Source of the DNA: Phycisphaerales bacterium
Lineage (GTDB): Bacteria; Planctomycetota; Phycisphaerae; Phycisphaerales; SM1A02
Assembly: GCA_020427695.1 (NCBI GenBank)
Contig: JAGQOG010000461.1
Coordinates: 1-32,214 of the forward strand
Length of the DNA: 32,214 nt
Direction of reading: 5' to 3'
A program made the position numbers and the translations under genes. Below are positions 14,845 through 19,168 of the stretch, one piece after another; positions within the stretch are counted from its first letter, which is position 1, and every line of letters begins with the position of its first letter. Under the pieces are notes generated by a model. The model ran no database searches. It worked only from the letters and a program-made list of their open reading frames with translations, and was not told the origin of the DNA.

Positions 14845-16059
14845 ATGCCCACCACCAAGGCCCAACCGGCGGCCGCGGCAGCCCTGAACGCCCACTTCGA
14901 TACGCGCACGGCGGCGTACGAGCTGGCTGCGCATTTGCGCGAGGGACTCGCCAAGGCGGGAGGCGATGGGGGAAGCGCCCGCTGCGACGCCGTGGCCCTG
15001 TTCGGCAGCTATCACCATCGCGCGGCGTTCGAGGACGCCGCGGAGATTCTCCGGCACGAGCTCGAGCCGGGCGTGCTGGTTGGCACGACCGCCGATTCCG
15101 TGGTGGGCGGCGACACCGAGCTCGAGGGACGGGCCGGTCTGAGCGCCCTCGCCTTGCGCGTGCCGGGCGCCTCGTTGCGCCCGTTCCGTCTCGGGATGCA
15201 CGAACTGCTTACGAGTACCGACGCGCCCGAGCTGTTCCGTCAGTACCTCGGCGTGGACGAACAGCGCCGAACGGCGATCGTGTTCGCCGATCCCTTCACC
15301 ACCCCCGCCGCACGTCTGCTCCCCCTCCTGCGCGGCACCGCCGATCTCCCTGCCGTCTCGGCCATCGGCGGCTTCGCCAGCGGGGCCAGCCAGCCTGGTC
15401 AAAACGTCCTGCTGCTCGATCGCGCCGCGTACATCGACGGGATGGTCGGCATCGCGATCGGCGGCGTCCGGGTCGATGCGTTGATCAGCCAAGGCTGCCG
15501 GCCGGTCGGACCTCCGCTGGTGGTGACGAAGGCCGCCGGCAACATGATCCTCGAGCTCGGCGGACGCCGCGCCGTCGAGGCGGCGCAAGGCGTGGTCTTC
15601 GCCATGAACGAGAGCGATCGCGCGCTCCTGTCGCGCGGGTTGCAGGTGGGCGTGGTGGTCAACGAGTACCAGGCGCGGTTCGGGCGCGGCGACTTCGTGG
15701 TGCGCGGGATCCTGGGCGTCAATGCCCGCAACGGCGGACTCGCCGTCAACGACATGCCCCGCGTCGGCCAGACGATCCAGTTCCACCTCCGCGATCCCGC
15801 GACCGCCGAGGAGGACCTCCAGCTCCTCCTCGACGCGGCCCAGCTCGAGGACCGTCCCTTCGCATCGCTCCTCTTCTCGTGCGCGGGGCGCGGCACGAGA
15901 CTGTTCAGCGAGCCGAACCGCGATGTCGGCGCCATCCAGCGCCGACTCGGTCCCCTGCCGCTGGCCGGGTTCTCCGCCACCGGCGAGATCGGGCCGTTGG
16001 GCGACCGCTGCCTCGTGCACGGCCATACGGTGTGCGCGGCGTTGTTGCGGGGCGCGTGA
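14845..16059 (+). CDS. FIST domain protein (N and C domains)
   Basis: Protein of 404 residues with the FIST N-terminal domain followed by FIST_C. FIST domains are thought to be small-ligand (possibly amino-acid) sensory domains, and are found alone or joined to signalling modules; here nothing else is attached. The C-terminal half shows the typical VVNEYQARFGRGDFVVRGILG stretch near 270-290, GQTIQFHLRDPATAEEDL near 312-329 and LFSCAGRGTRLFSEPNRD near 346-363, ending with LPLAGFSATGEIGPLG. No signal peptide or membrane segment. Start at ATG 14845; an in-frame ATG at 14782 would lie upstream of the TACACT hexamer and close to the shc promoter. Divergent from shc. Confidence 0.88.
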   Translation: MPTTKAQPAAAAALNAHFDTRTAAYELAAHLREGLAKAGGDGGSARCDAVALFGSYHHRAAFEDAAEILRHELEPGVLVGTTADSVVGGDTELEGRAGLSALALRVPGASLRPFRLGMHELLTSTDAPELFRQYLGVDEQRRTAIVFADPFTTPAARLLPLLRGTADLPAVSAIGGFASGASQPGQNVLLLDRAAYIDGMVGIAIGGVRVDALISQGCRPVGPPLVVTKAAGNMILELGGRRAVEAAQGVVFAMNESDRALLSRGLQVGVVVNEYQARFGRGDFVVRGILGVNARNGGLAVNDMPRVGQTIQFHLRDPATAEEDLQLLLDAAQLEDRPFASLLFSCAGRGTRLFSEPNRDVGAIQRRLGPLPLAGFSATGEIGPLGDRCLVHGHTVCAALLRGA

Positions 16060-16068
16060 CGGGCGAAG

Positions 16069-16325
16069 GCGCGTCCGGAGAGCGAGCGCGTGCGAACGAA
16101 GGGGTTATCAGGTGAGGGCCGCACACGCGTCCGGCATGGGAGCGCCGGCGAACGGAGGGGTGATCAGCAATTGGTTGCACGGAGGGCGCTCCCGGCGTGA
16201 ATGGACGCGCTCGGTCCTCACCCGCCGCGCGATCCGTGCAACCAATTGCTGATAACCCCTTCGTCCAATCGTCTCCTCCCGCCGCACACGCGCCCGCCCC
16301 TCACCTGATACCTTCGCCCGTAGTA
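16069..16325. repeat. modular palindromic repeat element, copy 1
   Basis: About 257 bp without a gene, built from four units ending in GG(T/G)TATCAG-like sequence: two on the plus strand (16101-16111 and 16157-16167) and two on the minus strand (16259-16249 and 16312-16302). The inner pair carries a 19-bp inverted repeat. An ACGCGTCCGGCAT-type module precedes the second unit. The whole element is present again in reverse orientation at 17722-17985, on the other side of one gene. No transposase is seen, so it resembles a REP/BIME-type or MITE-like element. Edges are approximate. Confidence 0.75.
16165..16251. repeat. 87-bp stem-loop core of repeat copy 1
   Basis: Arms CAGCAATTGGTTGCACGGA (16165-16183) and its exact complement (16233-16251), 19 bp each, around a 49-base loop. 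The loop matches the reverse complement of the loop at 17821-17869 at 41 of 49 positions. Confidence 0.85.
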
Positions 16326-16375
16326 CGCACGTGGCCGGTGCCCCATCGCCCCCGACCTCCCCACGCGTCCGTTGC

Positions 16376-16413
16376 AAAAAAAAGCGCCCGCCGCACCACG
16401 AGGTGCGGCGGGC
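16376..16413 (-). terminator. rho-independent terminator of the 16477 gene
   Basis: Perfect 12-bp stem GCCCGCCGCACC (16386-16397) and GGTGCGGCGGGC (16402-16413), loop of four, followed on the minus strand by eight T residues (16383-16376). It lies about 64 bp after the stop of the minus-strand gene at 16477. Confidence 0.9.
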
Positions 16414-16476
16414 CCAGACATGGTCGCGGCCGACGTTGACCGCGAGGCTCCGCGTTCATGCGCCCCGGACGGGAGT

Positions 16477-17523
16477 CTACTTGTTCACTTCGCTGTGATC
16501 CTTCTCGCTGGCACCGTTGGGCGGGGCGGCGTTCCCCTGGCCCGACGAGCTGCCCGAGCCGCCGACGGCCTTGGGCGGAGCGATCTTGTTGCCGCTCCGC
16601 GTCGTCGACTTGCCGCCTCGTGCGCCGGGCTTGCCCGAGGTGCCGGACGGCTCGATCACGATGCGCTTCGAGGAGGGCGGGGTCACGCCCTTGTTGCCGC
16701 TGACAAACGAGTTCTTGTTGCCGGGCTTGTCGCCGCCGCCCGACGACGGCGTGCCGGATCCGCTCTCCGCCTCCGCCGGGGGACCGGCGGGAGCACCCGT
16801 CTCCGGATCGGATCCGTCCGAGCCGGAGTCGCAGGGAACCAGGTTCGCGGGGTCGGCCATGATGTTGAGCATCGTGATGATGTTGGCCTTGTCGCCGCTG
16901 GTCATCTGGTACTTGTAGCGCAGCGTCGCGTCGCTGCCGATGGCGGGCGTCGCGACGGGCGAACCGAGGCCGAACGTCGAGTTCGTGCTCGCGGTGCTCG
17001 CGGCCGAACCGCTCATCTGGAACGGTCCGTAGAACTGCTGGACGGCGATCGCGTCGTCGGCCAGGACGCGGTAGACGGCATCGCCCTGCTCCGCCGTGAT
17101 CTTGCCGCCGTTGGCGTCCATCACGAGCGTGATGTTCACCATGCCGGACATGCTCGAGGCGTTGGCGATGACCGGACAAACCGGAAACTCCACGAGGATC
17201 TCGTAGTCGTTGGTCACCGAGCTCGAGTTCAGCATCGACATGCTGCCCGAGATGACCGCGTTGTTCTCGGGATTGAGGTCGGCGGAGTAGCTCCACGTGG
17301 CGGACCACAGGCCGGACGGGTCCGCGGTCGAACCGAGGAAGGTCATGTTGCCGTTGGCCGCGAGTTCGCCCAACGTGACCACGGATGGCGCTTCCACGCC
17401 GTTCACCTTGATGGTGACCTTCGCCTCCTGGGCCTCGGCGGAAGTCGCGAGAAGGCCCAGGGGCAGGAGTGCGAACGTTTGAAGGAGGAGGATTCGAGAG
17501 GACGTCGTTGGGGCGCTGCGCAT
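16477..17523 (-). CDS. secreted protein of unknown function with Gly/Ser/Lys-rich tail
   Basis: Protein of 348 residues. The signal peptide is MRSAPTTSSRILLLQTFALLPLGLLATSAEAQ. Residues about 33-215 form a beta-rich domain with polar, Ser/Thr/Asn-rich segments (KVTIKVNGVEAPSVVTLGEL, FGPFQMSG-like turns) and cysteines in PVCPVI and VPCDSG. From about 220 to the end it is low complexity: Gly, Ser, Pro, Lys, Arg and Asn with repeated GNK motifs (KPGNKNSFVSGNKG, RSGNKIAPPK). This basic disordered tail may bind a surface polymer; that is a guess. I recognise no family. AGGA eight bases upstream supports the ATG at 17523. It has its own strong terminator and is enclosed by the two inverted repeat elements, which makes it look like a stand-alone cassette. 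Confidence 0.75.
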   Translation of the reverse strand: MRSAPTTSSRILLLQTFALLPLGLLATSAEAQEAKVTIKVNGVEAPSVVTLGELAANGNMTFLGSTADPSGLWSATWSYSADLNPENNAVISGSMSMLNSSSVTNDYEILVEFPVCPVIANASSMSGMVNITLVMDANGGKITAEQGDAVYRVLADDAIAVQQFYGPFQMSGSAASTASTNSTFGLGSPVATPAIGSDATLRYKYQMTSGDKANIITMLNIMADPANLVPCDSGSDGSDPETGAPAGPPAEAESGSGTPSSGGGDKPGNKNSFVSGNKGVTPPSSKRIVIEPSGTSGKPGARGGKSTTRSGNKIAPPKAVGGSGSSSGQGNAAPPNGASEKDHSEVNK

Positions 17524-17690
17524 GTCGCTGTTCCTTTTGCTCGAGGTCAGCCAGGTCCGCCGTACGCCGAGGCGGGGCCGGGCCCCGGTCGAGCCGGGAC
17601 AGCCTGAATGTGCAATTGGAAAGCTGGGGCGGAAGCGATGCCCGCGGGAAGCCCGGGGTCCCGGGCGGGTTGGGGAGAGTCAGGAAAGCG

Positions 17691-17704
17691 TGCGGAATTC
17701 CGCA
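17691..17704. other. 14-bp palindrome upstream of the 16477 gene
   Basis: TGCGGAATTCCGCA is a perfect palindrome about 170 bp upstream of the minus-strand start at 17523. A second inverted repeat, GCCCGGG and CCCGGGC separated by GT, lies at 17651-17666. Either may be an operator; nothing else supports this. Confidence 0.25.
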
Positions 17705-17721
17705 GGGCCGTCCGATAGCCG

Positions 17722-17985
17722 GTGATCGGGAAACGGAGGGGGTATCAGCAGCGGGTCGGACGCGTGTGCGGTGAGAGGACGCGCGCGGACGGAGGGGGTA
17801 TCAGCAATTGGTTGCACGGATCGCGCGCTGGCTGGGGACGGACCGCGTCCCTTCACGGCGGGAGCGCCCTCCGTGCAACCAATTGCTGATAACCCCTTCG
17901 TTCCCTGGCGTCCCAATGCCGGACGCGGGCCCACCCTTCTGCTGATAACTCGTCCGTTCGCTCGCGCCCCAATGCCGGACGCGCC
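17722..17985. repeat. modular palindromic repeat element, copy 2 (inverted)
   Basis: About 264 bp, the reverse-oriented counterpart of 16069-16325. Units ending in TATCAG lie on the plus strand at 17738-17748 and 17794-17804, and on the minus strand at 17896-17886 and 17952-17942. The module GCCGGACGCG (complement of CGCGTCCGGC) occurs twice, at about 17918-17927 and 17974-17983. Aligning it with the reverse complement of copy 1 shows similarity along most of its length, strongest in the central 87 bp. It occupies most of the gap between the thiolase stop and the upstream region of the 16477 gene. Confidence 0.75.
17802..17888. repeat. 87-bp stem-loop core of repeat copy 2
   Basis: Exactly the same 19-bp arms as in copy 1 (17802-17820 and 17870-17888) around a 49-base loop that is the reverse complement of the copy 1 loop with eight substitutions. 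Equal size to the base and differences only in the loop point to a constrained structure. Confidence 0.85.
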
Positions 17986-17995
17986 TCCTCCATCC

Positions 17996-19168
17996 CTAAA
18001 CCTCAACAACCATCGCCACGGCGTTCCCGCCGCCCAGGCAGAGCGATGCCAGGCCGCGGCGGCCGCCGGTGCGCTGGAGGGCGTGCAGGAGCGTCACCAG
18101 GATTCGCGCGCCGCTGGCCCCGATCGGGTGACCGAGGGCGATGCCGCCGCCGTTGATGTTGAGCTTGTCCTCGGGAATGCCCAGGCGCGTGATGTTCGAG
18201 AGAAGCTGGGCGGCGAACGCCTCGTTGATCTCGAAGAGGTCGATGTCGGCCACCGACAGTCCGTTCCGCTTCATCAGGTTCCCGATGGCGAACTCGGGCG
18301 CGGTGAAGAGCTCCTTCGGCGGCACGCCGTAGGTGATGGAGTCCACGATGCGGGCCATCGGCTTCGCGCCCATTTCCTTCGCGGCCTCCTCGGAGGCGAC
18401 GATCAGGGCGGCGGCGCCGTCCGAGATCTGCGAGGCGTTGCCGGCCGTGACGGAGCCCGCCTTGTCGAAGGCGGGACGGAGCTTCGCCATGGCGTCGATC
18501 GAGGTGTCCGCACGGAAGCCCTCGTCGGTGTCGCAGCCCTGCTTCTGCTTGAGCTGTTCGGCGGAGAGGGGCACGATCTCGGGCTTGAAGAACCCTTCCG
18601 CGGTGGCCTTCGCCGTGCGCTGATGGGACTGCACGGAGATGCGGTCCATCTCCGCCCGGGTGACGCCGTGCTCCGTGGCGATCCACTCCGCCGCGCAACC
18701 CATCGGCCACTGCTCGAAGGCGCACGTGAGTCCGTCGGCCGCCATGTGGTCGATCAGTTCCGCCGAACCGTACTTGATGCCCGTTCGCGCATACACCATG
18801 TGCGGCGCAAGGCTCATGTTCTCGAATCCGCCGGCCACCACCACCTTGTTGTCGCCGGACCGGATCGACTGGGCGGCGAGCATGACCGCCTGCAGGCCCG
18901 AGCCGCAGACCTTGTTCACCGTCATCGCGTTGAGCGTCGGCGGCAGTCCCGCCTGAAGACCCGCCTGCCGCGCCGGGTTCTGCCCGAGTCCGGCCTGCAG
19001 GACACAGCCCATGATGCATTCGTCCACGCGGTCCTTCGCTGCCGGCACGTCCCCGAGTACCGCGCCGATGGCGTAGGCGCCGAGCTGCGGCGCGGGCGTG
19101 CGGCTGAGGGAACCGAGAAAGCGGCCGATCGGCGTGCGGCGGGCGGCGATGATGACAGGGGTCGACAT
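17996..19168 (-). CDS. acetyl-CoA C-acetyltransferase (thiolase)
   Basis: Thiolase of 390 residues, normal for the family, which condenses two acetyl-CoA to acetoacetyl-CoA or runs the reverse in beta-oxidation. The nucleophilic Cys88 is in VNKVCGSGLQAV, His347 in GGGIALGHPIGASGAR and the second catalytic Cys377 in LCLGGGNA. GGFENMSLAPH and NEAFAAQ are also intact. Length and motifs fit the biosynthetic/acetoacetyl-CoA type (AtoB, PhaA, ThlA) better than long-chain 3-ketoacyl-CoA thiolase, but the direction in vivo cannot be told. The ATG at 19168 gives the normal thiolase N-terminus (STPVIIAARRTPIGRF); no Shine-Dalgarno is visible. Divergent from the fructose bisphosphatase operon; the next downstream gene is separated by repeat copy 2. 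Confidence 0.95.
   Translation of the reverse strand: MSTPVIIAARRTPIGRFLGSLSRTPAPQLGAYAIGAVLGDVPAAKDRVDECIMGCVLQAGLGQNPARQAGLQAGLPPTLNAMTVNKVCGSGLQAVMLAAQSIRSGDNKVVVAGGFENMSLAPHMVYARTGIKYGSAELIDHMAADGLTCAFEQWPMGCAAEWIATEHGVTRAEMDRISVQSHQRTAKATAEGFFKPEIVPLSAEQLKQKQGCDTDEGFRADTSIDAMAKLRPAFDKAGSVTAGNASQISDGAAALIVASEEAAKEMGAKPMARIVDSITYGVPPKELFTAPEFAIGNLMKRNGLSVADIDLFEINEAFAAQLLSNITRLGIPEDKLNINGGGIALGHPIGASGARILVTLLHALQRTGGRRGLASLCLGGGNAVAMVVEV

Follow-up and report, generated by a model that had tools for sequence, protein, structure and literature searches.

Repeats of the REP type are widespread, and their mode of spread and their benefit to the host are questions still debated; some REPs serve as protectors of mRNA 3′ ends or as brakes on translation. 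Among the arrangements that have been described, REPINs are inverted REP doublets with a spacer, which form hairpins and apparently move (PMC3116915), and BIMEs are mosaic clusters of REPs (PMC2817692). REPs with a tag (GTAG or CGTC beside the palindrome) have been reported from deep phyla including the Planctomycetes (PMC3733652), MITEs and small intergenic repeats have been reviewed (PMC10969869), RU elements are treated in PMC2229807 and the heptameric short tandem repeats of bacteria in PMC4692102.

Here we analyse a stretch of 32,214 nucleotides, referred to as the window, from a Phycisphaerales bacterium (assembly GCA_020427695.1, a fragmented MAG that is 83% complete; contig JAGQOG010000461.1, positions 1–32,214, forward strand). 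It holds two facing copies of a composite palindromic repeat on either side of a single gene (Table 1). We consider it probable, at roughly two chances in three, that these copies are neighbours within one lineage-restricted family of about 90 composite palindromic intergenic repeats that is comparable to REPINs, BIMEs and MITEs, and whose ends and internal joints are marked by a heptamer. No description of this modular heptamer repeat family was found in the literature searched.

Like REPINs, the elements are extragenic (341 of 345 heptamers lie outside genes) and present in many copies (78 in the 0.94 Mb sampled), with inverted conserved ends, a preferred spacer length (about 95–117 or 138–200 bp), a hairpin in single-stranded DNA or RNA that is long in the window copies but for the family only modestly beyond controls, and signs of copying. 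They differ in that their ends are a tandem heptamer, whereas those of REPINs are a tagged imperfect palindrome, in their size of 100–400 bp with modules added outwards, and in that no RAYT gene flanked by repeats of the family was found in a genome that is 83% complete. When the sequences were read by eye, no GTAG or CGTC tag was seen at the heptamer ends or by the hairpin of the long cores described below. With BIMEs they share an extragenic mosaic of modules in opposite orientations, but here the modules are joined by heptamers and extend symmetrically outward from one core, and the core and module sequences are different. Non-coding nature, dispersal, inverted ends and a long hairpin recall MITEs and RU elements, from both of which the family departs in an arm length that varies with module number; for MITEs in particular, no target-site duplication, empty site or parental insertion sequence was seen within this one assembly. 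Intergenic tandem 7-bp units in variable number also occur in heptameric short tandem repeats, but the heptamers here flank a conserved core in opposite orientations and form the joints of longer modules. The best reading is that the family works like REPINs and BIMEs but should not be filed as a member of either, as neither the tag nor a matching RAYT was found. Integron attC sites were rejected on inspection, as CTGATAAC/GTTATCAG fits neither RYYYAAC nor GTTRRRY and the genes ahead of the elements are ordinary ones, arranged convergently or in tandem, in contrast to the same-direction cassette arrays of integrons.

The two copies in the window and their neighbouring genes

Recomputation returned the 87-bp cores of a preliminary description of this DNA unchanged, with 19-bp arms identical in both (CAGCAATTGGTTGCACGGA / TCCGTGCAACCAATTGCTG) and 49-base loops that agree at 41 of 49 positions once one is reverse-complemented and at 24 of 49 directly. 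The two copies had also been called reverse complements over most of their length, and positions 16062–16312 are indeed identical to reverse-complemented 17741–17991 at 202 of 251 positions. In a search of the whole genome this inverted match (81%, E = 7.7e-62) stands against a next-best match of only E = 8e-11, so that copies 1 and 2 are each other's closest relatives by far. The word "inverted" is nevertheless incomplete, since the copies also align on the same strand with 71–73% identity, because each is a near-palindrome that forms one hairpin over most of its length. The palindromic core is thus present as described, but the hairpin spans most of each whole copy. Folding of both strands, as had been suggested, gave one long hairpin for each copy folded singly (−148 to −173 kcal/mol), and folding of the spacer that holds copy 1, which includes the neighbouring terminator too, is extreme (z −8 to −10).

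Table 1. Features of the two repeat copies and of the genes beside and between them (window positions).
Feature	Position	Strand	Remark
Copy 1, composite palindromic repeat	16060..16325	.	fills spacer from FIST gene stop codon
Copy 2	17732..17993	.	reaches thiolase gene stop codon
Copy 1 core, 87 bp	16165..16251	.	19-bp arms and 49-base loop
Copy 2 core, 87 bp	17802..17888	.	innermost heptamer pair 17797–17893; short-core profile E ~1e-10
Heptamer GTTATCAG, copy 1 left arm	16104..16111	-	
Heptamer variant GTGATCAG, copy 1 left arm	16160-16167		
Heptamer CTGATAAC, copy 1 right arm	16249..16256	+	
Outer heptamer CTGATACC, copy 1 right arm	16305..16312	+	56 bp farther out
Outer heptamer GGTATCAG, copy 2 left arm	17741..17748	-	
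Inner heptamer GGTATCAG, copy 2 left arm	17797..17804	-	
Inner heptamer CTGATAAC, copy 2 right arm	17886..17893	+	
Outer heptamer CTGATAAC, copy 2 right arm	17942..17949	+	
FIST-domain gene	14845..16059	+	Pfam FIST, FIST_C and gene call; copy 1 directly after stop
Enclosed secreted-type gene	16477..17523	-	no Pfam match; translation
Intrinsic-terminator-like hairpin and T-run of enclosed gene	16376..16413	-	inverted repeat and plus-strand A-run; outside copy 1
Thiolase gene	17996..19168	-	Pfam Thiolase_N, Thiolase_C and gene call; copy 2 directly after stop

The single gene between the copies has its own terminator-like hairpin and T-run, as previously described, and its translation begins like a signal peptide and is of low complexity in the C-terminal part. 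The homology between the copies begins 3 nt past the stop of the FIST gene (16059) and ends about 5 nt short of that of the thiolase gene (17996), and the two copies are oriented alike with respect to the stops of their own outer genes. The copies are therefore inverted because the FIST and thiolase genes face each other and each copy is anchored at a stop codon, and we judge the enclosed gene to be incidental to the pair. This anchoring, together with the heptamer joints, the outward tandem modules and the whole-element hairpin, was absent from the preliminary description, which had correctly stated that the window has no transposase or recombinase; none was found in Pfam scans of the 24 genes called. 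No Rfam covariance model matched in the window at its gathering score, and in 20 element-bearing contigs compared with Rfam only a tRNA matched.

Anatomy of the genome-wide family

A search of the genome for further copies had been recommended and, when run, uncovered a dispersed family. The box ACGAAGGGGTTATCAG recurs throughout the genome, where the motif CTGATAMC has 386 matches (194 + 192) against 14 (7 + 7) for the reversed control. Our sample consisted of 100 contigs (70 known to bear the motif and 30 others) and the window, 0.94 Mb together, with 20 more contigs added later, and genes in the sampled contigs were called with a codon-usage model. The 0.94 Mb contain 345 of the 386 matches in 91 clusters, of which the 78 with more than one heptamer are counted as elements, and scaling suggests a genome-wide total of about 90. 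About a third of the elements (27 of 78) are no more than 300 bp from the end of their contig, as expected if elements break the assembly.

The heptamers mark the inverted ends and the module joints of the elements and are the part common to all module types. In every element with both heptamer kinds, those on the left are on the minus strand (GGTATCAG) and those on the right on the plus strand (CTGATACC). The innermost heptamers enclose either a short, near-palindromic core of about 95–117 bp or a long core of about 138–200 bp, and outwards follow tandem modules of 55–83 bp, joined by heptamers, with periods mostly of 55–57, 72–75 and 79–83 bp. The number of units in exact heptamer arrays ranges from 1 to 9. 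When the short core was modelled as a profile, the two strands gave equal scores and both copies of the window were among the matches (E ~1e-8 to 1e-10), and element-bearing spacers are G-rich at the left end (skew +0.37) and C-rich at the right (−0.34), whereas control spacers are near 0. Module lengths of about half a core gave rise to the idea that elements were inserted into each other's centres, which was rejected as the numbers of modules on the two sides are often unequal; one element (C132) has none on one side and two near-identical tandem modules on the other.

Placement, spread and competing explanations

Although genes make up 85% of the sampled sequence, nearly all heptamers lie between them, and the occupied spacers are 15 of 73 convergent, 34 of 394 tandem and 2 of 100 divergent ones (Fisher p = 0.004; p = 1.2e-5 for spacers of 200–600 bp alone). 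This shows that the elements sit in spacers beside stop codons, whereas divergent spacers, which hold promoters, are avoided. For 76 gene 3′ ends the distance to an element is at most 130 bp, and for most of them at most 60 bp; the outermost module often extends right to the stop codon. TAG stops are commoner in these element-adjacent genes (33 of 76 against 165 of 590, p = 0.007), a difference that may be due to chance, as several comparisons were made.

Elements beside unrelated genes reach a similarity of about 90%, in some cases confined to the part between the heptamers, which implies copying. In one pair of elements on different contigs (C293 and C462) the homology runs from heptamer array to heptamer array and ends there, and similar limits are seen in the pair on C231. 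Sharing a contig goes with greater similarity: the median is 67.6 bits for elements on the same contig, a figure based on ten pairs, and 35.6 bits for those on separate contigs (p = 2e-4). The contig ends of C8 (L154) and C265 (L189) apparently represent one locus in two strains. They are identical in the shared gene start and in most of the core, whereas one heptamer array has a 7-bp unit more than the other, and there is a further difference in a short stretch near the start codon.

The relatives were also searched, as had been proposed, with the joined motif and with one short core, and both are absent from 60 relatives (family and order). Among 400 genomes from the order the matches were isolated ones only, most clearly a single CTGATAC tandem array in each of G098, G129 and G176 (L255, L256 and L257), which are three species of a single genus belonging to a different family. 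Across some 85,000 species of GTDB, a scan gave 70 scattered single exact hits, against a rough chance estimate of about 60, and none was shown to have several elements; the presence of the family in other GTDB genomes was rejected accordingly, as was a phage or plasmid origin, for which the matches are likewise chance-like only.

The preliminary description had offered three readings of the pair, of which the one that fits is that of REP/BIME-like elements that happen to face each other, within a family found at gene 3′ ends. That the copies are the borders of a non-autonomous mobile cassette with the enclosed secreted-protein gene as its cargo is highly improbable, even if they are mutually closest relatives facing each other around one gene. 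Some 78 relatives lie at unrelated genes, singly at many of them, the anchor points of the homology are the stop codons of the outer genes, and the pair on C231, around a gene of 987 residues, is directly oriented. Moreover, pairs around one gene, with both neighbouring spacers occupied, number 4 against a random expectation of 3.0 (P = 0.36); many 3′-end copies with no link to the enclosed gene had been named as the outcome that would tell against a cassette, and about 90, if not the hundreds then envisaged, is what the genome suggests. The same relatives and chance-rate pairs speak against a segment that is inverted by site-specific or homologous recombination. The copies do offer 251 bp of inverted homology, but at about 80% identity the exact stretches are short and the window lacks a recombinase, so we give this reading very little credence. 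A further suggestion, that the heptamer is a putative site at which a regulatory or chromosome-organising protein binds, which would make the repeats arrays of binding sites, would suit a heptamer that is common to every module type and repeated up to 9 times in an array; it is very unlikely, as heptamers almost never occur alone in genes, the conservation of cores and modules exceeds the heptamer and no such protein is known here.

There is more to be said for resident, selected and non-mobile structures of gene 3′ ends, acting as bidirectional terminators, protectors of mRNA 3′ ends or translation brakes. Positions after stop codons, avoidance of divergent spacers, the very stable folding of the window copies and the absence of an orientation bias, as for a two-way structure, are all consistent with it, although neutral insertions would be expected to avoid promoters equally. 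On the other hand, the elements fold only somewhat more strongly than other 3′ spacers (median z of −2.7, the others having −1.6; p = 0.03), no U-tract is evident in the elements, and intrinsic terminators follow 1 of 74 genes with an element and 15 of 391 others, which is not significant (p = 0.49), and the idea of elements as substitute terminators was rejected on that account. With the absence from 60 relatives and the evident copying between unrelated sites also against it, we think the resident-structure explanation unlikely, while a bidirectional 3′-end role for the elements is possible.

We prefer a dispersed repeat family. Its members would be non-autonomous and would reach the 3′ ends of further genes by copying, with DNA folded as a single strand or hairpin as the intermediate on which an enzyme supplied elsewhere may act. 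Template switching and slippage at the heptamers would afterwards lengthen or shorten the arms. The pair in the window may have come about by local copying from the 3′ end of one gene to that of its neighbour, or by conversion between the two, and any host function, such as bidirectional termination or 3′-end protection, would be secondary. Against this, gene conversion between old copies could also yield similar neighbours. A striking inverted pair around a gene can thus be two separate repeats, each tied to the stop codon of its own neighbour, and a modular family with clear joints, 3′-end placement and apparent strain-level heptamer variation makes copying, slippage and a role in termination testable.

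The hairpin of the long cores and the question of a mobiliser

Alignment of the long cores gave a hairpin, GCGGGTCGAC...GTCGGCCCGC, in 29 sequences. One internal pair is never Watson–Crick (U·G in 27 and G·A in 2), and most other one-sided changes are G·U pairs on the analysed strand. This pattern gives a hint, tempered by the relatedness of the copies, that one single strand may be recognised, as RNA or ssDNA. Searched with a model of the hairpin, the genome yields 70 copies, 40 relatives yield none, and none was found in the window. The orientation of the long core relative to the adjacent gene has no clear bias (about 7 against 10). Some of the hairpin copies are found away from heptamer elements, where they often form inverted doublets, with a distance of about 90 bp in many cases, and the hairpin looks like a separate REP/REPIN-like family that serves as the centre of long elements.

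No transposase was linked to the heptamer family in a Y1_Tnp search of the genome and a Pfam scan of the window genes. The one Y1_Tnp (RAYT-like) match of the genome, on C332 (L253:1465–1989), is at the borderline of the Pfam cut-off, and the gene is flanked by REP/REPIN-type repeats of its own (GTGCCACTGAC type), which are unrelated to the heptamer family; no convincing long-core hairpin was found at its flanks. A RAYT-driven REP was rejected because the sole Y1_Tnp gene is flanked by other repeats, though with the genome 83% complete the absence of a matching RAYT is not final. It is doubtful, though conceivable, that the family represents a new kind of mobile repeat, palindromic, with slippage-prone heptamer ends, stop-codon targeting, outward modules and, in its long form, a REP-like mismatch hairpin, that would depend on a type of transposase not yet linked to such repeats. 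Inverted doublets of the long-core hairpin outside heptamer elements are found on six contigs, namely C24 (L288:138–293 and 1291–1443), C33, C295, C466, C501 and C230.
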